Shown here: positions 10,710-19,436 of the stretch, piece by piece
Numbering within the stretch: the stretch's first letter is position 1
How the letters are laid out: each line of letters opens with the position of its first letter
DNA from: Myxococcales bacterium
GTDB lineage: Bacteria; Myxococcota; Myxococcia; Myxococcales; JAJYLH01
DNA length: 36,201 nucleotides
Assembly (NCBI GenBank): GCA_021787845.1
Contig: JAJYLH010000055.1
Span: 1-36,201, forward strand
Direction of reading: 5' to 3'
Program-made: the position numbers and the translations under genes
Notes under the pieces: model-generated
What the model was told of the DNA's origin: nothing
The model's database searches: none
Seen by the model: only the letters and a program-made list of their open reading frames with translations

Positions 10710-12575
10710 CTATTGCGGCGCGACGGCGATCGCCTGCGACACCGAGCTCGACTGGGCGAACTGGTCGGTCACGGTCAGCGTGACGACGTAGTTGCCCTTC
10801 ACGTTCAGGTTCGCGACGTCGGTCTTGATGTTGGTCGGCGTGCTCAACGTCGCGGTCGAACCGGCCGGCTTGTTGGTCAACGCCCACTGGAAGGTCAGCG
10901 TGTCCGTCGCTTCCGGCCCGGTAGAACCGCTCCCGTCCAGCGTGAGCACCATCCCGACCTGCGGCGCGGTCGTGCACTGGCTCGAGCCCGCCTGGTGCGC
11001 GCAGACCGTGATCTTCGGCACCGGCGGGAAGTTCGGAGTGTTCTCGCTCAAGAGGTCGACCTCGTACGCGCCGCCGTTGCTCGCGTAGGACGGGTCGTCA
11101 CTGACGATGCGCAGCTTCGCCGAGTCGTTCGCCAGGCTCACCGCGTCGTTGAAGGTGACGACCAGGTCGTCGTGCCCAGCAGGAGCGACGCTGGCCGCCG
11201 CGAAGGTCGGAATCGAGTAGCTCCCCATCGGATTGGTGCTCGCGGGAATCGTGACGCTCGAAACGTGCAGGGTCGCGCTGCCCGCGTTCTCCAGCCGCAC
11301 CGTCCGCGTCAACCCTTTCGCGCCCGTCGCGGTCTGGCCGAAATCGATCGGCGGATCCTGCTCCGCGCCGGTGGTCGGGTCGAGCCACTTGACGACCAGC
11401 TCCGGGTCCGTCCCGCCGATCAGCGTGACGCTCGCGGTCTCGGTCCCGCCGGGAGTGGTCGCGGTCACCAACACCGTTGCCTTGTCCACCGTGGCCTGCT
11501 CCGGCGTGTAGGTCACCGTCACGTCTTTCGAGCTGCTCGCGGGCACGTCGATCGTTTCCGTCTCCGGTCCGCTCGGCCCCAGCGTGAACGCCTTCGTCCC
11601 GCCATCCGGCTTGATCGTGATGCCGACGCCGTTCAGGCCAGCGGTACCGCTGTTGATCACCGTGAAGGTCTGCGACTCCGGCGTCCCGGTCTGCGCGTGG
11701 AAGAACGTCAGCTCCGTCGGGTCGACGCTCAACGCCGGCGCGACCGAGTTCGCGAACATCCCCAGCTCCCACACGCCGGGGTCGGTCCCGCCGTTCTTCG
11801 GCTGCGGATCGGTGCTGACGATCTTCATCCGGATGTTCGGCGTCAGCGACAGCTTCGGCGGCGGCGAGAAGCGCACCGTCACGTCGCGCGCCTCGCCTCC
11901 GCGCAGGACGAACGGCGCCTGGTCTTTCGGCGTCGAGAAGAGGCGCGCGTCGGAGAGCGCCTGGGAGCTCGTCGGGTCCGGGTAGGCCTGCGGGTCCGGA
12001 TAGAACGACATCGACTGCACGGTGAGGTTGCCGCAACCGTTGTTCGCGAGGTGGGCGACCCGGTCCGCCGTCTGCCCGGCCGGGATGTTGTCGAACTCCA
12101 GGTCGTTGCAGGGCTGGAGCTGTGAGTCGCCAGCGGTCTGTGGGCAGGTCACCTCGAAGTCGACGTCGGGCAGGTTCGAGCCGTTGCCGACGAGCGTCGC
12201 GTGCTGGGTGCCGTTCGTCTCCGCGTCGGTCACCACGTCGAACGCGCCGGCGAACTCGTCCGCCGTCGGGGGGGTGAAGCCCACCCGCACAGCGACCTGC
12301 TGGCCGGGGTCGAGGCTCGCCGGCAGCGGCGCGAGGAGCGTGAAAGAGACGCCACTCACCGTGCTCTTCGTCGCGTCGATGTCGATCGGCACGGTGCCAG
12401 TGTTCTCGAGGAGAATCTGTTGCTCGCTCGTCGCGTTCAGGCAGCCGACCCCGAAATCGAGGCTCTTGGGCGACATCACGAGGACGCTCGTCGCGTGCTG
12501 CAGGTGCGTGCCCCCGCAGTTGCAGGCGGCGAAGAACGGCAGGACGAGCGAAATTGCGAGACGGCGCGCGCGCAT
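10710..12575 (-). CDS. Large lipoprotein with ASH (choice-of-anchor D) and PKD-like domains
   Basis: A 621-residue exported lipoprotein. The signal peptide ends FFAAC (lipidated Cys18) and the mature protein begins CNCGGTHLQ. Several beta-sandwich repeats of the ASH/choice-of-anchor D type follow (for example SPKSLDFG, then TGTVPIDI and VRVGFTPP; later PTELTFFHAQTG and PPIDFGQTA). Near residue 545 a PKD-like domain begins (LTLDGSGSTGPEATDT, then FQWALTNKP and YVVTLTVTD). It is probably an envelope or surface structural protein; the role is unknown. A paralogue with the same mature N-terminus lies at 23658-25511. The start at 12575 follows GAGG. The 120 bp before the ClpX-like gene holds nothing recognisable. 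Confidence 0.87.
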   Translation of the reverse strand: MRARRLAISLVLPFFAACNCGGTHLQHATSVLVMSPKSLDFGVGCLNATSEQQILLENTGTVPIDIDATKSTVSGVSFTLLAPLPASLDPGQQVAVRVGFTPPTADEFAGAFDVVTDAETNGTQHATLVGNGSNLPDVDFEVTCPQTAGDSQLQPCNDLEFDNIPAGQTADRVAHLANNGCGNLTVQSMSFYPDPQAYPDPTSSQALSDARLFSTPKDQAPFVLRGGEARDVTVRFSPPPKLSLTPNIRMKIVSTDPQPKNGGTDPGVWELGMFANSVAPALSVDPTELTFFHAQTGTPESQTFTVINSGTAGLNGVGITIKPDGGTKAFTLGPSGPETETIDVPASSSKDVTVTYTPEQATVDKATVLVTATTPGGTETASVTLIGGTDPELVVKWLDPTTGAEQDPPIDFGQTATGAKGLTRTVRLENAGSATLHVSSVTIPASTNPMGSYSIPTFAAASVAPAGHDDLVVTFNDAVSLANDSAKLRIVSDDPSYASNGGAYEVDLLSENTPNFPPVPKITVCAHQAGSSQCTTAPQVGMVLTLDGSGSTGPEATDTLTFQWALTNKPAGSTATLSTPTNIKTDVANLNVKGNYVVTLTVTDQFAQSSSVSQAIAVAPQ

Positions 12576-12621
12576 CTTTGGGCCTCGCCCCCGGCAGGCA
12601 AGAGCGCCCGGGCGGCCGCAC

Positions 12622-12651
12622 ACGATAGCTGCCCGTCCGGTCGCCGGACAA
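12622..12651 (-). promoter_or_regulatory. Possible promoter of the ASH/PKD lipoprotein gene
   Basis: Minus strand: TTGTCC (complement of 12646-12651), an 18-nt spacer, and TATCGT (complement of 12622-12627), about 47 bp before the start codon at 12575. It lies in the 245-bp region shared with the divergent ECF sigma gene. Confidence 0.4.
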
Positions 12652-12820
12652 CGGCGCGACGGTCCGCCTCCATGCCTTTCGCGAGGCACGAGCCGGCCCT
12701 AGCCTTTCGCGGCGGTGATCGGCCTTTCGAGCATCCGCTGGCGGACGAGAAGCCTTGCGGCCACGACACGAGCGGCCGACGCTTGCGCACCGCCCGCGCT
12801 TCGCGAGACAACGGGACCGC

Positions 12821-13336
12821 ATGGATCGGCAGAATCTTCGGCAGCTCTACGAACGCTACGCTGGCCACGTCCACGGCCGCTGCCGGTATCTGCTCAAGGA
12901 CGAGGAAGCGGCCCGCGACGCGGTGCAGGAGGTCTTCCTCAAGGCGCTCGATCACGGCGACGCGTTTCGAAACGAGGCGCAACCGTCGACCTGGCTCATC
13001 CGCATCGCCACCAACTACTGCCTGAACGTCCTGCGCGCGCAGGCGAACAAGACCCGTCAAGCCGTGCGGGAGGGCCGCCTCGAAGTAGCAGGGCCGCAGG
13101 CCCTCTGGAGCACCGACCGCGCCGAGCGCCGCCAGCTCGTGCGCGAGCTGCTGGAACAGGTCGACCAGGAAACCGCCGCGGTCGCCGTCCACTACTTCGT
13201 CGACGAGATGACCCAGGAGGAGATCGGCGAAATCGTCGGGCGCTCGCTCCCCACCGTGCGCAAGCGGCTACGCGAGTTCATCGACGCGGCGAGCGCCCTC
13301 GCCGGCGAGCCTCCGTCGACCGCCGTCGGACGCTGA
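12821..13336 (+). CDS. ECF-type RNA polymerase sigma factor (sigma-70 family)
   Basis: A 171-residue two-domain sigma factor. Region 2 spans about residues 8-68 (LYERYAGHVHGRC, then DAVQEVFLKAL and PSTWLIRIATNYCLNVLR). Region 4 lies at about 118-155 (AVHYFVDEMTQEEIGEIVG, then SLPTVRKRLREF, a helix-turn-helix that reads the -35 element). The lack of regions 1 and 3 identifies the extracytoplasmic-function group. The next gene, 83 bp downstream, encodes a zinc-finger anti-sigma factor, so this factor is probably held at the membrane until an envelope signal releases it. The start at 12821 is chosen from homology; its ribosome-binding site is weak, and a longer in-frame start exists at 12755. 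Confidence 0.92.
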   Translation: MDRQNLRQLYERYAGHVHGRCRYLLKDEEAARDAVQEVFLKALDHGDAFRNEAQPSTWLIRIATNYCLNVLRAQANKTRQAVREGRLEVAGPQALWSTDRAERRQLVRELLEQVDQETAAVAVHYFVDEMTQEEIGEIVGRSLPTVRKRLREFIDAASALAGEPPSTAVGR

Positions 13337-13419
13337 CGTCGCCTTGGCCTCGTGTCCTCGCGCCGTTCTTTTCCAGTGACGCCGGTCACAGGTGTCCAAC
13401 GCCGTCGAGGAGGCACGCG

Positions 13420-14193
13420 ATGAACGAGCTGTCCCCCATCGAAGCGGCCTGCGGAGGGCCGAGCCTGGCGACCTTGCGCCGCTACGACACCGGCGAGCTC
13501 GCGCCGGCGGACGCGGCGCGGGTCCAGGCCCACGTCGACGGGTGCGAGGCCTGCCAGGCGGTGCTGGGCGATTTTTCCGCCGAGCGAACCGCGGTACGGC
13601 TCGAAGTCCCGTTCAGCGCAATCGAAGCGAGGCTACCCGGCGGCCGCGCGCTCGCCAAGCTGCGCCGCTTCAGCCTCTATCTCGCGCTGCCGCTCATCGG
13701 CGCCGCTGCCGCCCTCTTCCTCGTCCCGCGCCGGACCACGAACGGCGAGGCGCCGGCCATCCGCCGCAAGGGCGCCCGGCTCGACTATTTCGTCAAGACG
13801 CCCGCGGGCGTGCGTCCCGGCAACCAGTTCGCCGGCCTGCGCCCGGGCGACCGGATTCGGTTCCGCTACGATGCCGAGCGGATGAAGTACGTCCTGATCG
13901 TCGGCGTCGACCCCGACGGCAAGGTGTCTGCGTACGCCGCGAGCGGCGATCGGTCGATGCGCTCGGCGGGCCCCGGCCTCAACCTCGTCCCGAGCGCGGT
14001 CACCCTCGACGCCGACCCGCAGCCGGAGCGGGTCTTCGCGCTCTTCTCGAACGAGCCGATCGCGGTGGACGAAATCGTGCCCGCGGCGAAGGACGCGCTG
14101 CACGAGGCGCACGGCGACGTCACGCGCGTGAAGCATTTGCCGCTGGCGCGCGACGTGGAGCAAGCGACGGTGCTCCTCCGACGGGCGCCCTGA
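13420..14193 (+). CDS. Membrane anti-sigma factor: zinc finger plus DUF4384-like domain
   Basis: A 257-residue protein. The N-terminal cytoplasmic part has the zinc anti-sigma signature His38-x3-Cys42-x2-Cys45 (HVDGCEAC). One membrane helix spans about residues 85-103. The extracytoplasmic part reads RPGDRIRFRYD, then YVLIVGVDPDGKVSAY and ERVFALFS, resembling DUF4384 domains found with caspase-like and kinase proteins. It should sequester the preceding sigma factor and sense an envelope state through the outer part; the sensing role is inferred. The start at 13420 lies 6 nt after GAGGAGG at 13407-13413, one of the strongest ribosome-binding sites in the window. The caspase-like gene begins 18 bp after its stop, so they are probably co-transcribed. 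Confidence 0.87.
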   Translation: MNELSPIEAACGGPSLATLRRYDTGELAPADAARVQAHVDGCEACQAVLGDFSAERTAVRLEVPFSAIEARLPGGRALAKLRRFSLYLALPLIGAAAALFLVPRRTTNGEAPAIRRKGARLDYFVKTPAGVRPGNQFAGLRPGDRIRFRYDAERMKYVLIVGVDPDGKVSAYAASGDRSMRSAGPGLNLVPSAVTLDADPQPERVFALFSNEPIAVDEIVPAAKDALHEAHGDVTRVKHLPLARDVEQATVLLRRAP

Positions 14194-14211
14194 CGCAAGA
14201 GAAGAAGGCGG

Positions 14212-15804
14212 ATGCGAAGAGCGCTCGTCATCGCCGGAATCGTCCTCGCCGCGTCCTTCGCGCGCGCGCAGGCGGGCGAAACGCGCGCGGCGGTGATCGT
14301 CGGCGACAATGACGGCGGCAGCGGTGCCGTCCGGCTGCGGTACGCGGTGACCGACGCGGAGCGGATCGATCGCATCCTCACGACGCTCGGGGGAGTCCTT
14401 CCGGCGAACGCGTTCCTCCTGCGCCACCCGACGGTCGCCCAGCTCGAGCAGGCGCTCACCGACGCCGACCGCCGCGCGCACGGCGGGGTCGTCTTCTTCT
14501 ACTTCTCCGGCCACTCCCGCGACGGGGCGCTTCGCCTGGGAGAGGAAGCGCTCCCGCTCCCCGAGCTGCGCCGGCGGCTCTCCGCTCTCCACGCGCGGGT
14601 GAAGGTCGCCATCCTCGACAGTTGCAACAGCGGCGAGCTCATCCGGTCGAAGGGCGGCACGGTCGGCCCGCCCTTTCGCGTCAGCATCGAGGCGCCGGGC
14701 CCCGAGGGCCTCGCCGTCCTCGCCTCCAGCGCCGCCGGCGAAGACTCGCAGGAGTCCGACCTCTTGGGGGCCTCGTTCTTCACCTACTACCTCGCGTCCG
14801 GCCTGCGCGGCGACGCGGACACGAACCAGGACGGCAAGGTGACCCTCTCGGAGGCCTACGACTACGCCTACGCGCGAACGGTGGCGGAGACCGCCGAGGC
14901 CCGCGCCGGGCTCCAGCACCCGACCTACGGCTACACGCTCTCCGGCACCGGTGACGTATGGCTCACCGACGTGTCCAACGCGACCGCGGCCCTCATCCTC
15001 CCGCCCGATTCCAGCGGCGACTACGTCATCGTCGACGCCCGCAAGCGCACCCTGGTCGCGGAGGTGGACAAGGCGAAGGGTACCCGCCGGACGGTAGCCC
15101 TCCCGCCCTCGACCTACGAGGTGAAGCGCCGCGACGGGGACCACGCGCTCTTCGCCCGGGTGCGCCTGTCGAAGGGAGACCAGGTGACCCTCTTCGACGG
15201 CGCGATGGAGCGCATCGCCCTCGCCCGCAACCTCGTCAAAGGCCCCGACTGGGCGGGCGACCTGGCCCGGGTGCGGCCGTGGCGCTTGAGCGTCTCGGCG
15301 GGGGCCGCGCGGCAGTTCTTCTTCGCCGCCGCCACCCGCTCCGACTACTTCCCCGACTTGACGCTGGGCGAAATCGATGTCGAGCTACGGGACCTCTTCT
15401 CCAGCGCGGCGCCGGTCCTGGGTATCGACTTCGCGGCGGGCACCGCGCCCTTGACCTTGAAGCTCGGCGAAACCGCCATCGTGAGCCAGGTGACCCAGTG
15501 GATGGGCGGCGTGAGCTTTCTCGAGGAGCTGCCGGCGGGCCGCTTCAAGCCATACCTGGGCGTCCGGCTGAGCGTCATCGACGTCGAGCGCGGCTTCTCG
15601 CCCACTTCGAGCGGCCAGTCGTTTCCGAGCCAATCGCTTCTGACGAGCGCTCCCGGAGTCGTGGCCGGGGTGAACGTGCGGCTCGTCGGCCGGCTCGCGC
15701 TGGGCGTGCGGGCGCGCGCGAGCTTTCTCCTCTACCGCTCGCAGGACCAGGACCTCTCGCTCGGCTACGCCGACGTGGGCCTGGTCCTGAAATGGGAGCT
15801 CTAG
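14212..15804 (+). CDS. Exported caspase-like (C14) protein with probable C-terminal beta-barrel
   Basis: A 530-residue protein. The signal peptide is cleaved after about residue 19 (FARA). The p20-type caspase domain covers about residues 24-240 and has the catalytic dyad His101 (FYFSGHS) and Cys138 (ILDSCNSGE), so the protease is predicted intact. DADTNQDGKVTLSE at 201-214 matches an EF-hand-like calcium loop. After a linker, residues about 290-360 look like an Ig-like or PEGA-type segment. Residues about 370-530 show alternating hydrophobic/polar strands ending VGLVLKWEL, suggestive of an 8-stranded outer-membrane barrel. Caspase-like proteins of bacteria cleave after basic residues; the substrate is unknown. 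It is tightly linked to the anti-sigma gene upstream and abuts the lipoprotein gene downstream. Confidence 0.85.
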   Translation: MRRALVIAGIVLAASFARAQAGETRAAVIVGDNDGGSGAVRLRYAVTDAERIDRILTTLGGVLPANAFLLRHPTVAQLEQALTDADRRAHGGVVFFYFSGHSRDGALRLGEEALPLPELRRRLSALHARVKVAILDSCNSGELIRSKGGTVGPPFRVSIEAPGPEGLAVLASSAAGEDSQESDLLGASFFTYYLASGLRGDADTNQDGKVTLSEAYDYAYARTVAETAEARAGLQHPTYGYTLSGTGDVWLTDVSNATAALILPPDSSGDYVIVDARKRTLVAEVDKAKGTRRTVALPPSTYEVKRRDGDHALFARVRLSKGDQVTLFDGAMERIALARNLVKGPDWAGDLARVRPWRLSVSAGAARQFFFAAATRSDYFPDLTLGEIDVELRDLFSSAAPVLGIDFAAGTAPLTLKLGETAIVSQVTQWMGGVSFLEELPAGRFKPYLGVRLSVIDVERGFSPTSSGQSFPSQSLLTSAPGVVAGVNVRLVGRLALGVRARASFLLYRSQDQDLSLGYADVGLVLKWEL

Positions 15805-16797
15805 ATGAACCTGGCCAAGGTCGCCGCGGCGGTCGCCCTCATCGGCTTGGCGGGAGCGCTCCCGGCCTGCGGCGGCCTCTCGAACGAGGAGCTGCAGGCG
15901 CTGGCCGTGCTCCCGGACGGCCACCTCGCGGTCCAGGCGCCGGAGGACGACGGGCAGGCGCTGGGCGCGAATGGCCCCGGCAACGCTTCCGCTCCCCTCA
16001 CCGGCCCGGGCATCGTCCGGCAGGCGAACGTCACCGCGGCCGTCCTGAACCTCTACCTCGCCCAGGTGGTCGCGCACATCCAGTCGATCGCCCAGCGGCG
16101 GCCGTCGAGCCGGGCCGGGCACCGGTTCGTCTGGGGACCGTTTCCGATTCGCGGCCGGTACTTCGCCCGGGTGACGATCGGCCGCGACCCGACCGCGACC
16201 TGTCCGGGCGAAGCGGCCGCGGTCGATGACGGCCAACCGCGTTTCCGTTTCACGGTCGAGCTGTCGGACGCGACGACGGGCACCTTCCGTGGGGTCGTCA
16301 CCGGCCAGGTACACGGCTCCGACTTCGACCATTCCTGCGGCAGCCTGACCTTCGACAAGTCGGTCGACCAGGCCTTCGGCGGCGCTGCCGCTCTCCACGA
16401 CCCGGCGTCGGTCACCATCGGCTGGACCCGCGACGACACCGCCCACGCCCTGGACGTGCAGCTCAGCTACGCCGACCACGGTGGGAGCGACCTGGTCGGC
16501 GGGGTCGATTACCAGTTCGAACGAGGCCCGAGCAACGAGCACCGACAGTTCGCGTTCGTGGCGCCGGTCAACCTGGTACGCGGCAGCGCTCTCGAGAACC
16601 TCCACGCGGCGGTGCAATGGAGCGGCGCCCACGCGACCGCCGGCCGCGCCGACTACCAGCTCGACGGCGGCGACGTCGTCGGCGTCCTGAAGGGCACCGC
16701 CTGCTGGAACGGCCGGGAGCGCTACCGCGACGACTGGACCGGACTCACCGGCGATCCGAGCGTCTGCGGCGCGTTCGAAGCGCTGCCGCCACCCTGA
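15805..16797 (+). CDS. Hypothetical lipoprotein of the caspase/ECF cluster
   Basis: A 330-residue protein with a lipoprotein signal ending LPAC (lipidated Cys22). The rest is beta-rich and has no recognised domain. Four mature-region cysteines (near residues 133, 172, 294 and 326) could form two disulfides. The ATG directly abuts the TAG stop of the caspase-like gene, and GGGAG lies within the end of that gene, so translation is probably coupled. It may be a partner or substrate of the caspase-like protein at the outer membrane, an inference from position alone. Confidence 0.75.
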   Translation: MNLAKVAAAVALIGLAGALPACGGLSNEELQALAVLPDGHLAVQAPEDDGQALGANGPGNASAPLTGPGIVRQANVTAAVLNLYLAQVVAHIQSIAQRRPSSRAGHRFVWGPFPIRGRYFARVTIGRDPTATCPGEAAAVDDGQPRFRFTVELSDATTGTFRGVVTGQVHGSDFDHSCGSLTFDKSVDQAFGGAAALHDPASVTIGWTRDDTAHALDVQLSYADHGGSDLVGGVDYQFERGPSNEHRQFAFVAPVNLVRGSALENLHAAVQWSGAHATAGRADYQLDGGDVVGVLKGTACWNGRERYRDDWTGLTGDPSVCGAFEALPPP

Positions 16798-16822: not shown

Positions 16823-18253
16823 GTGCACGTCACCTGGGTCGTCGTCGCCGAAGTGGTCTACGTCGTGTCGCTCGCGACGTGGATCGTGCTGGAGAAGCGC
16901 CAGCCGCTCGCGACCATCGCCTGGGTCCTCTCGCTCGCGCTGCTTCCCATCGTCGGGTTTCCCCTCTACTGGCTGCTCGGGCCTCGCCGCCTCCGGCGCA
17001 AGCGCTCGCGTCGCGCGCTCGCTCTCAGCCGCATCCGGGCGTCGCTCCCGGACGTGCGCGCGCTGGCCGACCCGAGCCTCGGCGTCGTCCACGAGAAGCT
17101 CGACGCCCGGCGGCGGCAGCTCATCGCGCTCGCGCTCAACAACAGCCAAGCGCCCTTGTCGGCCGGCAACGACGCGCGCGTCCTGCGCAACGGCGCCGCC
17201 TGCTACGCGGCCATCGAACGCGCGGTCCGCGCCGCCCGGCACCACGTGCATTTCCAGTACTACATCTTCGAGCCCGACGAAGCCGGCCGCCGCTTTCGCG
17301 ACCTGCTCGTCGAGAGGGCCGAGAGCGGTGCCGAGGTGCGTCTCTTGGTCGACGGGTTCGGCTCCCACAAGCTCTCCCGCCGGTTCCTCGCTCCGCTCGG
17401 CCGCGCGGGGGTGGAGCTCGCGTTCTTCAACCCCGTCGCCTTCGCCCGCCTGCGTCCGGCGAATTTTCGCAACCACCGCAAGATCGTGGTGGTCGACGGC
17501 GAGGTCGCGTTCACCGGTGGCTTGAACGTCGGCGACGAGTACCTGGGCCTCGCGCCGACGGCGGGCGCCTGGCGCGACACCCATCTGGAAATCCGGGGAC
17601 CGGGAGCGCTCGCGCTCCAACGGCTGTTCGCCGAGGACTGGAGCTACGCGACCGGCCGCTCCATCGCGACCAGCTCCTATTTCGAGGAGCATCCCGGGAC
17701 CGGCGACGCGCTGGTGCAGATCGTCGGCTCGGGCCCGGACCGCGACTGGCAGGCGATTGCGCAAGTCTTCTTCGCCGCCATCGCGAGCGCGCGCGACCGG
17801 GTGCTCTTGACGACCGCCTACTTCTGCCCGGACGAGCCCGCGCTCGCCGCACTCACCACCGCCGCCCTGCGCGGGGTCGACGTGCAGCTCCTCCTGCCGC
17901 GCAAGACCGATTCCCTCCTCACCCGCGCCGCCGGCCGCAGCTTCTTCGACGAGCTGCTGCGGGCGGGGGTGCGCATCTACGAGTACCTGCCGGGCCTCTT
18001 GCACGCGAAGACGCTGGTCGTCGACGAGGCGTTCGCCGCGATCGGGAGCGCGAACTTCGACCAGCGGAGCTTCCGCCTCAACTTCGAGGCGACAGCGCTC
18101 CTCTACAGCGAGACCGTCGCCGAGGACCTCGCGACCATCTTCGAGCAGGACCTGACGGTCTCCCGCGAGATCACGGTCGAGGATCGGCAGGGCCGCGGCG
18201 CTCTCGACAAGCTCAGCGAAGCGGGCGCGCGGCTCCTCTCGCCGCTGTTGTGA
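16823..18253 (+). CDS. cls: Cardiolipin synthase (phospholipase D family)
   Basis: A 476-residue membrane enzyme that joins two phosphatidylglycerols to cardiolipin and glycerol. Two N-terminal membrane helices lie at about residues 5-22 and 30-50. There are two HKD motifs: His218-Lys220-Asp225 (NHRKIVVVD, followed by TGGLNVGDEY) and His394-Lys396-Asp401 (LHAKTLVVD, followed by GSANFDQRS). This is the full set expected of bacterial Cls. The start is a GTG at 16823, 25 bp after the lipoprotein gene, so it may belong to the same transcript as the ECF/caspase cluster, which would fit an envelope-stress role. It converges on the lipoprotein gene at 18345. Confidence 0.93.
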   Translation: MHVTWVVVAEVVYVVSLATWIVLEKRQPLATIAWVLSLALLPIVGFPLYWLLGPRRLRRKRSRRALALSRIRASLPDVRALADPSLGVVHEKLDARRRQLIALALNNSQAPLSAGNDARVLRNGAACYAAIERAVRAARHHVHFQYYIFEPDEAGRRFRDLLVERAESGAEVRLLVDGFGSHKLSRRFLAPLGRAGVELAFFNPVAFARLRPANFRNHRKIVVVDGEVAFTGGLNVGDEYLGLAPTAGAWRDTHLEIRGPGALALQRLFAEDWSYATGRSIATSSYFEEHPGTGDALVQIVGSGPDRDWQAIAQVFFAAIASARDRVLLTTAYFCPDEPALAALTTAALRGVDVQLLLPRKTDSLLTRAAGRSFFDELLRAGVRIYEYLPGLLHAKTLVVDEAFAAIGSANFDQRSFRLNFEATALLYSETVAEDLATIFEQDLTVSREITVEDRQGRGALDKLSEAGARLLSPLL

Positions 18254-18344: not shown

Positions 18345-19436
18345 TCACGGCGCCGCGAACGGGTCGGTGGACGGGGGCGCTGCCGAGTAGCTCACCTCGC
18401 CGTCGGCCCCGACGGTGAGAAGCCCCAAGCAGGAGAAGCTCTGCTTGCCGCCGGCGACGTCCTGGGCGATCGAATCGCTGGCGAGGTCCGAGAGGATCAG
18501 GTCGAACCGCCTCTCCGCGAGCACCGTTCCGTCGCGCTTGCGCAAAGAGAGCCAGGCCGGGACCTCGATGTCGCTTCCGCCAGCCCTGGCCGCGACGATC
18601 GCATATCGCCCACGAGGAGCGCTATCAGCGAGCACCACCGCTTCCGCCCCCTGGTTCGACGCGCTCGACAGCTCGAGCTTCGCCTGCCACGCCCCATCCG
18701 CCACGAAGGTCGGCGTCCTCGCGTTCACTTCGGCCCCGCCGAGCTTCGGCCCGACCAGGAGCCGCAGGTCGAGGTCGGCGTCGCCAGACCAGGTCAGCTC
18801 GGCGATCACGCCGATGCGCGGGTCGCTCGGCTTCGCGACCACGTCGAACGCGCCGTGGCCCGCGGCTCCGGCCACGTACAGGACGAGAGCGCCGCCGGAT
18901 GACGCCAGCGCTTCCCCACTCACCTGGGTGCCCGCCTCGAGCGGCCACAACAGGTTCCACTGCGGGTCGTACGCCCACGCGGTGTCGATGGTCGTTCCCC
19001 AACCGCCTGAAAGCGACAGCACGTCCTCGTTCTGGGAAACGGCCGGCGCCCGAGCCAGGGTCGTGTCGGGCACCTTCACCGCGAGCAGGTAGCTCTCGGT
19101 TCCGAGGGGGACCCCGTCCTTAGACTTCGCTTGGACCGTGAATCGCCGCCACTGTCCGACGACGGTCGGCATGCCCTGCAGCGTGCCGTTGCCGTCTAGC
19201 GTGATGCCGTCCGGGAGCGCTCCCGCCGTCAACGAGACCACCGGCGGCACCCCGTCGCTGACCACGCTTCCCTGAACGGCGACGAAAGGCGAGACGAGCG
19301 GCGACGCGAGCGGGACCAGCTCGGCCGTTGGCGGCGGCAGGGGCTTGTCGGCGCCGCCGCAGCCCGGCATCAGGGTCATGCTGAGCAGAACCGCACCCGC
19401 CCTCCAAAGCGCGCCGCCTCGCGTCCGCCCGGCCAT
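18345..19436 (-). CDS. Lipoprotein with putative Ig-like and DLDL-motif beta domains
   Basis: A 363-residue exported lipoprotein whose signal ends LMPGC (lipidated Cys26). Residues about 66-108 resemble a putative-Ig (He_PIG) repeat: LTAGALPDGITLDGNGTLQG, ending with FTVQAK. Near residue 215 the stretch ELTWSGDADLDLRLL starts a second beta-sandwich domain. The same WxGxxxxxxDLDL pattern occurs in the lipoprotein at 23658-25511 and is reminiscent of YfaP/DUF2135-type domains. The function is unknown. The start at 19436 follows GGAAGG closely. The upstream 85 bp before the tRNA terminator has no clear promoter. Confidence 0.8.
   Translation of the reverse strand: MAGRTRGGALWRAGAVLLSMTLMPGCGGADKPLPPPTAELVPLASPLVSPFVAVQGSVVSDGVPPVVSLTAGALPDGITLDGNGTLQGMPTVVGQWRRFTVQAKSKDGVPLGTESYLLAVKVPDTTLARAPAVSQNEDVLSLSGGWGTTIDTAWAYDPQWNLLWPLEAGTQVSGEALASSGGALVLYVAGAAGHGAFDVVAKPSDPRIGVIAELTWSGDADLDLRLLVGPKLGGAEVNARTPTFVADGAWQAKLELSSASNQGAEAVVLADSAPRGRYAIVAARAGGSDIEVPAWLSLRKRDGTVLAERRFDLILSDLASDSIAQDVAGGKQSFSCLGLLTVGADGEVSYSAAPPSTDPFAAP

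Follow-up and report, generated by a model that had tools for sequence, protein, structure and literature searches.

Operons that pair a sigma-70 factor with a metacaspase have been reported in Myxococcus xanthus and other Deltaproteobacteria (Asplund-Samuelsson et al., 2012; PMC3501461). As presented in the available part of that survey, these operons, found in Myxococcus, Anaeromyxobacter, Haliangium, Sorangium, and others, are of the same kind as the one described here, and the sigma-metacaspase linkage has thus been known since 2012 and is not new. The same part of the survey describes neither a motif in the anti-sigma factor nor a barrel, and a lipoprotein pair, a promoter element, and a mechanism are likewise absent from it. 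The locus described here belongs to a Myxococcales bacterium (GenBank assembly GCA_021787845.1) and lies on contig JAJYLH010000055.1, positions 1 to 36,201 of which (36,201 nucleotides) are referred to as the window. It encodes an extracytoplasmic function (ECF) sigma factor, a membrane anti-sigma factor, an exported caspase-like protease, and a lipoprotein. We propose, with a probability of roughly 0.55, that the caspase is a site-1 protease that cuts its own anti-sigma factor and so acts upstream of the switch, in a self-contained system leading from the envelope to transcription.

The closest known mechanism is that of Craspase (Cas7-11/Csx29, Csx30, and CASP-sigma), in which Csx29, a protease of the caspase fold (CHAT), cuts an inhibitor whose ECF-type sigma factor is encoded at the same locus (PMC10028731). 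Craspase, however, is triggered by RNA and is part of a CRISPR system, whereas the present locus has an exported protease with a predicted outer-membrane location and, as the inhibitor, a membrane-bound anti-sigma factor with a periplasmic domain. The locus does not belong with the type III-E systems, as no CRISPR protein is encoded among the genes of the unit and their neighbors. The DegS-RseA-RseP-sigmaE pathway and other examples of regulated intramembrane proteolysis (RIP) of anti-sigma factors share the order of events proposed here: (i) a periplasmic site-1 cut near the membrane; (ii) a site-2 cut; and (iii) a free sigma factor. In those pathways the site-1 enzyme is a serine protease or a signal peptidase, whereas the role would fall here to a cysteine protease of clan CD that is tethered to the outer membrane. 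TonB-dependent signaling (FecA/FecR/FecI; PMC9249621; PMC11637429) likewise runs from an outer-membrane barrel to an inner-membrane anti-sigma factor and an ECF sigma factor. In contrast, the barrel predicted here is a small one of 8 strands joined to a protease domain, and the unit contains no TonB-dependent receptor. A review of ECF sigma factors reports that proteolytic control has been proposed for ECF54, with peptidases of the CHAT type and others encoded in its context (PMC8999054). There is also an earlier description of EACC2-caspase systems that include ECF sigma factors (PMC8195603). The open-access literature yielded no account of a barrel-bearing caspase, of a motif shared by such a protease and its anti-sigma factor, or of the lipoprotein pair and promoter element discussed below, nor did it yield a paper on a caspase cutting an anti-sigma factor in myxobacteria.

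The Caspase and its Anti-sigma Factor

The four genes run in the same direction on the forward (+) strand, separated by 83, 18, and 0 base pairs (bp) as first described, and every frame of the cluster has the G+C codon-position pattern typical of real genes. The first gene (12821-13336) encodes an ECF sigma factor of 171 amino acids (a.a.), within which TIGR02937 (85 bits), Sigma70_r2 (E-value 5.5e-16), and r4_2 all score above their cut-offs. The second gene (13420-14193), which adjoins that of the sigma factor, encodes a predicted zinc anti-sigma factor (zf-HC2, class I) of 257 a.a., with a cytoplasmic finger placed before a single transmembrane helix. The zf-HC2 match reaches 29.3 bits against a cut-off of 22.2 (E-value 9e-7), residues H38, C42, and C45 of the HxxxCxxC finger are nearly invariant among the aligned anti-sigma factors, and the hydrophobic segment starts at residue 86. 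The invariant residues of this alignment are A96, R115, K117, and G118, the last three of which lie just outside the membrane in the putative juxtamembrane periplasmic motif R115-R-K117-G118 (13762-13773). The outer domain can be called DUF4384-like only, since its match to DUF4384 (PF14326), at 21.8 bits, falls short of the curated cut-off (27).

The third gene (14212-15804) encodes the caspase, a protein of 530 a.a. that carries a signal peptide, matches Peptidase_C14 (PF00656) at 43.8 bits against a cut-off of 21.4 (E-value 3e-11), and is the sole C14 match in the 6.24-Mb host genome. Its score against the EACC1-associated caspase family (NF047832) is 64.3 bits, below the cut-off of 140. 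The catalytic dyad of His101 (codon 14512-14514) and Cys138 (codon 14623-14625) is intact, just as the original prediction stated, and both residues are invariant in both caspase alignments. The acidic D136 of the DxC sequence is also invariant among caspase relatives, which fits cleavage directed at arginine or lysine. In the protease domain, an EF-hand-like loop at residues 203-214 (D203-T-N-Q-D207-G-K-V210-T-L-S-E214; 14818-14853) has invariant D203, D207, L212, and E214 and nearly invariant G208 and V210. This pattern is found in 102 of 117 caspases, and the loop is a possible calcium site.

An AlphaFold2 model of the caspase, built on an alignment of 45 relatives, has a predicted local distance difference test (pLDDT) score of 87 and consists of a caspase domain, a small beta domain, and eight long strands at residues 358-529 (358-370, 383-393, 402-418, 421-439, 445-462, 474-492, 495-509, and 514-529). 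Foldseek matches the N-terminus to caspase-7, caspase-3, and a Candida glabrata metacaspase solved with calcium, and the C-terminus to NspA (1p4t; TM-score 0.72), OmpA, Ail, OmpX, and OmpW; sequence profiles match NspA (E-value 8e-5) and the same Candida glabrata metacaspase. Judged from the model strands and these matches, the C-terminus (15283-15798) is predicted to form an OmpA/NspA-like 8-strand outer-membrane barrel. Both ends of barrels of this kind face the periplasm, which would place the protease domain there, held at the outer membrane. The barrel, the second lipoprotein of related loci, and the motif shared by caspase and anti-sigma factor (both below) did not figure in the original prediction. 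The pLDDT of the model falls below 50 at two stretches only, residues 344-354 and residues 143-161, and the latter, a predicted disordered loop (14638-14694), begins right behind Cys138.

The Shared Basic-glycine Motif

The loop behind Cys138 carries R145-S-K147-G148 (14644-14655), and R145, K147, and G148 are invariant in both caspase alignments, the one of 45 relatives included, despite the predicted disorder. In the caspase loop and in the anti-sigma factor alike, the motif is usually R-x-K-G. Among 113 non-redundant caspase-linked anti-sigma factors, the aligned residue is a lysine in 111 and an arginine in 2, and it is followed by a glycine in 112. A basic-Gly pair is present in the loop of each of the 110 partner caspases with a scorable active-site motif, the lysine standing at Cys+9 in 108. 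As a control, 20 non-redundant membrane anti-sigma factors without a caspase, taken from the same genomes, contain no R-x-K-G (0/20) and a single KG of any kind (1/20). Orthocaspases are known to cleave after positively charged residues (PMC6426788). Taken together, these observations speak for a shared cleavage site in the caspase loop and the anti-sigma factor, although they are no proof of one. It is proposed that residues 145-148 of the caspase are a self-processing site or an exosite, and that site-1 cleavage of the anti-sigma factor would occur after K117. Whether the protease acts upstream or downstream of the switch had been left open in the original prediction. The motif common to both proteins favors the former, and we infer from the sequences that the caspase acts upstream rather than only as an effector.

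The contrary view, that the caspase is an effector, holds that it is induced by the sigma factor and cuts envelope or cell proteins in lysis, remodeling, or predation, with a different protease or a bound ligand freeing the anti-sigma factor. Its place downstream of the sigma and anti-sigma genes, in an operon with its own promoter-like element, is the usual position of a target gene, and the 2012 survey, in its available part, discussed the metacaspases of myxobacteria in connection with developmental autolysis (PMC3501461). This view nevertheless leaves unexplained why the basic-Gly pair is common to the linked anti-sigma factors and the caspase loop and wanting in unrelated anti-sigma factors, and it is considered somewhat unlikely as the whole account. 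An effector role is compatible with the upstream role, and the two may coexist.

The motif also recurs in a second, divergent caspase family with a lipobox and SHG and CHSG active sites, in which KG is found behind the lipobox of the caspase and again in the stalk of the anti-sigma factor; at one such locus (L187), RDKG is present in both proteins. Its presence in both proteins of two caspase families, in the second of which the site is N-terminal and not only in a loop, would also be expected if a third protease cut both proteins, or if the motif were a docking site, with the caspase and the sigma factor activated in parallel. Such a scheme is rather improbable, as a disordered loop right behind the catalytic cysteine and the basic preference of orthocaspases fit self-cleavage more simply. 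As a separate observation, members of the second family (L182-L200; e.g., L183, L187, L188, L192, and L197) combine a [ST]HG/CHSG active site with a barrel-like end and carry KG close to their N-terminus, and their genes adjoin those of a sigma and an anti-sigma factor, followed by another lipoprotein family.

Several points weigh against cleavage of the anti-sigma factor by its caspase. The motif was not predicted beforehand but emerged from the data before being tested, so its apparent strength is inflated, and the window's own match to the promoter element described below is weak. At nine loci that encode the same anti-sigma family and lack a caspase by tblastn, basic-Gly is lost in four (L276, L277, L269, and L271), a loss that speaks for the proposal, but it is kept in five (L232, L270 as RG, L272, L273, and L274), which may mean that the motif is structural or that the caspase losses are recent. 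Also in favor of the proposal, the difference between linked and unlinked anti-sigma factors has a Fisher p of about 1e-5, a value not corrected for the tree; a tenth locus, L095, at which a caspase gene lies upstream in the same orientation, was left out of the unlinked set. KG is likewise kept in some caspases without a neighboring anti-sigma gene (L064, L071, L143, and L144). Finally, when the arginine at P3 is followed on the tree, protease and anti-sigma factor reflect mostly one ancestral split, with one joint change against six single changes, which is not significant (p 0.07). The strong raw co-variation of this residue (86 pairs with arginine in both, 16 in neither, and 6 mixed) was not used as evidence. 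Among the caspase-less loci, L272, L273, and L274 may have lost the caspase recently or be served by another protease, and L232:7569-8968 is a degraded module in which an anti-sigma factor with RIKG is followed by a 202-a.a. barrel without the protease part.

The five loci that keep the motif, along with the uncertain limits of the periplasmic domain, also agree with a coincidence, whereby the motif would be the structural start of both the DUF4384-like domain and the caspase loop, and an ordinary sigma/anti-sigma pair would drive an unrelated exported enzyme. On the other hand, caspase-less relatives with the same periplasmic domain have lost the motif in several lineages, and about 22 residues separate the motif from the start of the DUF4384 profile match (residue 140). 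We regard a coincidence of this sort as very improbable.

In the preferred reading, that of a site-1 caspase, the anti-sigma factor would retain the sigma factor at the inner membrane, and the barrel would anchor the caspase to the outer membrane, leaving the protease domain on the periplasmic side. An envelope signal, perhaps received via the barrel, the lipoproteins, or the calcium-type loop, would activate the caspase, which would then cleave its own loop between the lysine and glycine of R-x-K-G and would also cut the anti-sigma factor at its copy of the motif, which lies close to the inner membrane on the periplasmic side (site-1). A site-2 protease and cytoplasmic proteases would complete the breakdown of the anti-sigma factor, and the freed sigma factor would transcribe its own operon in a positive feedback. 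The host genome holds M50 site-2 protease candidates; the prerequisites of RIP that are seen comprise the single-pass anti-sigma factor and these M50 protease genes only. A fuller version of the proposal makes the outer-membrane caspase its own zymogen and the site-1 protease at once, with both cuts at one R-x-K-G motif directly coupling an outer-membrane event to transcription, and with several paralogous sigma/anti-sigma/caspase sets in each myxobacterial genome. It is offered tentatively, with the odds slightly against it.

The Operon and its Promoter-like Element in Related Genomes

The host genome (6.24 Mb in 153 contigs) belongs to the order of Myxococcus, Corallococcus, Archangium, and Anaeromyxobacter. 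None of the 59 listed relatives is closer to it than the level of this order, and the set contains no close relative. A search of 60 genomes found matches to the caspase in 52, with about 30 homologs along the full length, barrel included, and 80 named loci came from a scan limited to a single genome for each species. Neighbors were counted at the 64 named loci with a full-length caspase and room for neighbors. Genes in the relatives were called by a simple script and loci from different sources overlap, for which reason named-locus and non-redundant counts are preferred. The anti-sigma gene lies one gene upstream of the caspase in 61 of the 64 loci, a sigma homolog lies two genes upstream (61/64), and a homolog of the lipoprotein follows directly downstream (58/64). 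The co-occurrence in other Myxococcota on which the original prediction had staked itself is therefore borne out, and its compact unit of ECF sigma factor, anti-sigma factor, exported caspase, and lipoprotein keeps its order in dozens of species. Starts and stops abut or overlap between the sigma and anti-sigma genes at 57 related loci and between the anti-sigma and caspase genes at 51, which points to a single transcript.

Three genes upstream of the caspase, 52 of the 64 loci encode a homologous second lipoprotein (lipoprotein A), and the usual unit is lipoprotein A, sigma, anti-sigma, caspase, and lipoprotein B. The window is without lipoprotein A, the first gene of this unit. Hence the lipoprotein of the original prediction holds its conserved place after the caspase, but the single copy described there does not represent most relatives, which have a pair. 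The expected co-induction of cardiolipin supply with the protease did not find support: cls, a cardiolipin synthase gene (16823-18253, + strand; TIGR04265, E-value 2e-128) that follows the lipoprotein gene by 25 bp, adjoins the unit in this window only. It is absent from all 64 related loci (0/64) and was dropped as a member.

In many relatives, the sequence TTTC[TC]G-N16-GTGTCC is found upstream of the first operon gene, about 20-120 bp before its start. Across the 60 genomes, the exact pattern has 19 sites, 14 of them in front of this operon, and the reversed control has 1. This distribution suggests that the sigma factor drives its own operon from a promoter of its own type in the relatives, in agreement with the ECF switch of its own that had been claimed for the cluster. 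The window itself has a promoter-like match (TTTCC-N17-GTGTCC; 13370-13400, + strand) in the gap between the sigma and anti-sigma genes; its matrix score is 7.4, and with about 22 such matches per Mb per strand as background, it is suggestive only. A search of the host genome with the pattern from this site came out near background (54 vs. 31 for the control).

Lipoproteins, Neighbors, and Significance

Lipoprotein B (15805-16797, + strand) is a protein of 330 a.a. with its lipobox cysteine at position 22 and conserved Cys300 and Cys321, and its AlphaFold2 model has a pLDDT of 80. It has no Pfam match at an E-value of 1, and Foldseek found no match to its model in the PDB at an E-value of 0.001. 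A fold assignment by VIA-align was rejected, as the best Z-score (7.6, OspA) and the others (7.0-7.3) lie in the range expected without a real relative. The host genome has a second lipoprotein homolog (G000:C128:101545-102663; L288:7546-8664), located between metabolic genes and preceded by a promoter-like element 95 bp upstream with a score of 14.3, for which the background is about 1-2 matches per Mb per strand.

The cluster is flanked on the opposite strand by genes for two exported proteins with Ig-like domains of the HYDIN/ASH and He_PIG types (window 10710-12689 and 18345-19436, both on the - strand), no homolog of which was seen adjoining related operons. At L052-L071 (e.g., L060:9485-11824), paralogous sigma/anti-sigma/caspase triplets that lack lipoproteins occur in several copies per genome, and many of their caspases are 700-830 a.a. 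long, with a long C-terminus without a Pfam match. One further locus (L079; BNCN01000006.1), titled Comamonas sp. KCTC 72670, groups with Myxococcaceae and is probably mislabeled or contaminated.

The role of bacterial caspase homologs has long been an open question, and it is usually framed as one of cell death. If the proposed mechanism is true, the caspase would be a caspase-fold site-1 protease working in the periplasm and tethered to the outer membrane, and we know of no earlier one. A large group of caspase homologs, present in many copies in myxobacteria, would then be signaling proteases that release sigma factors.

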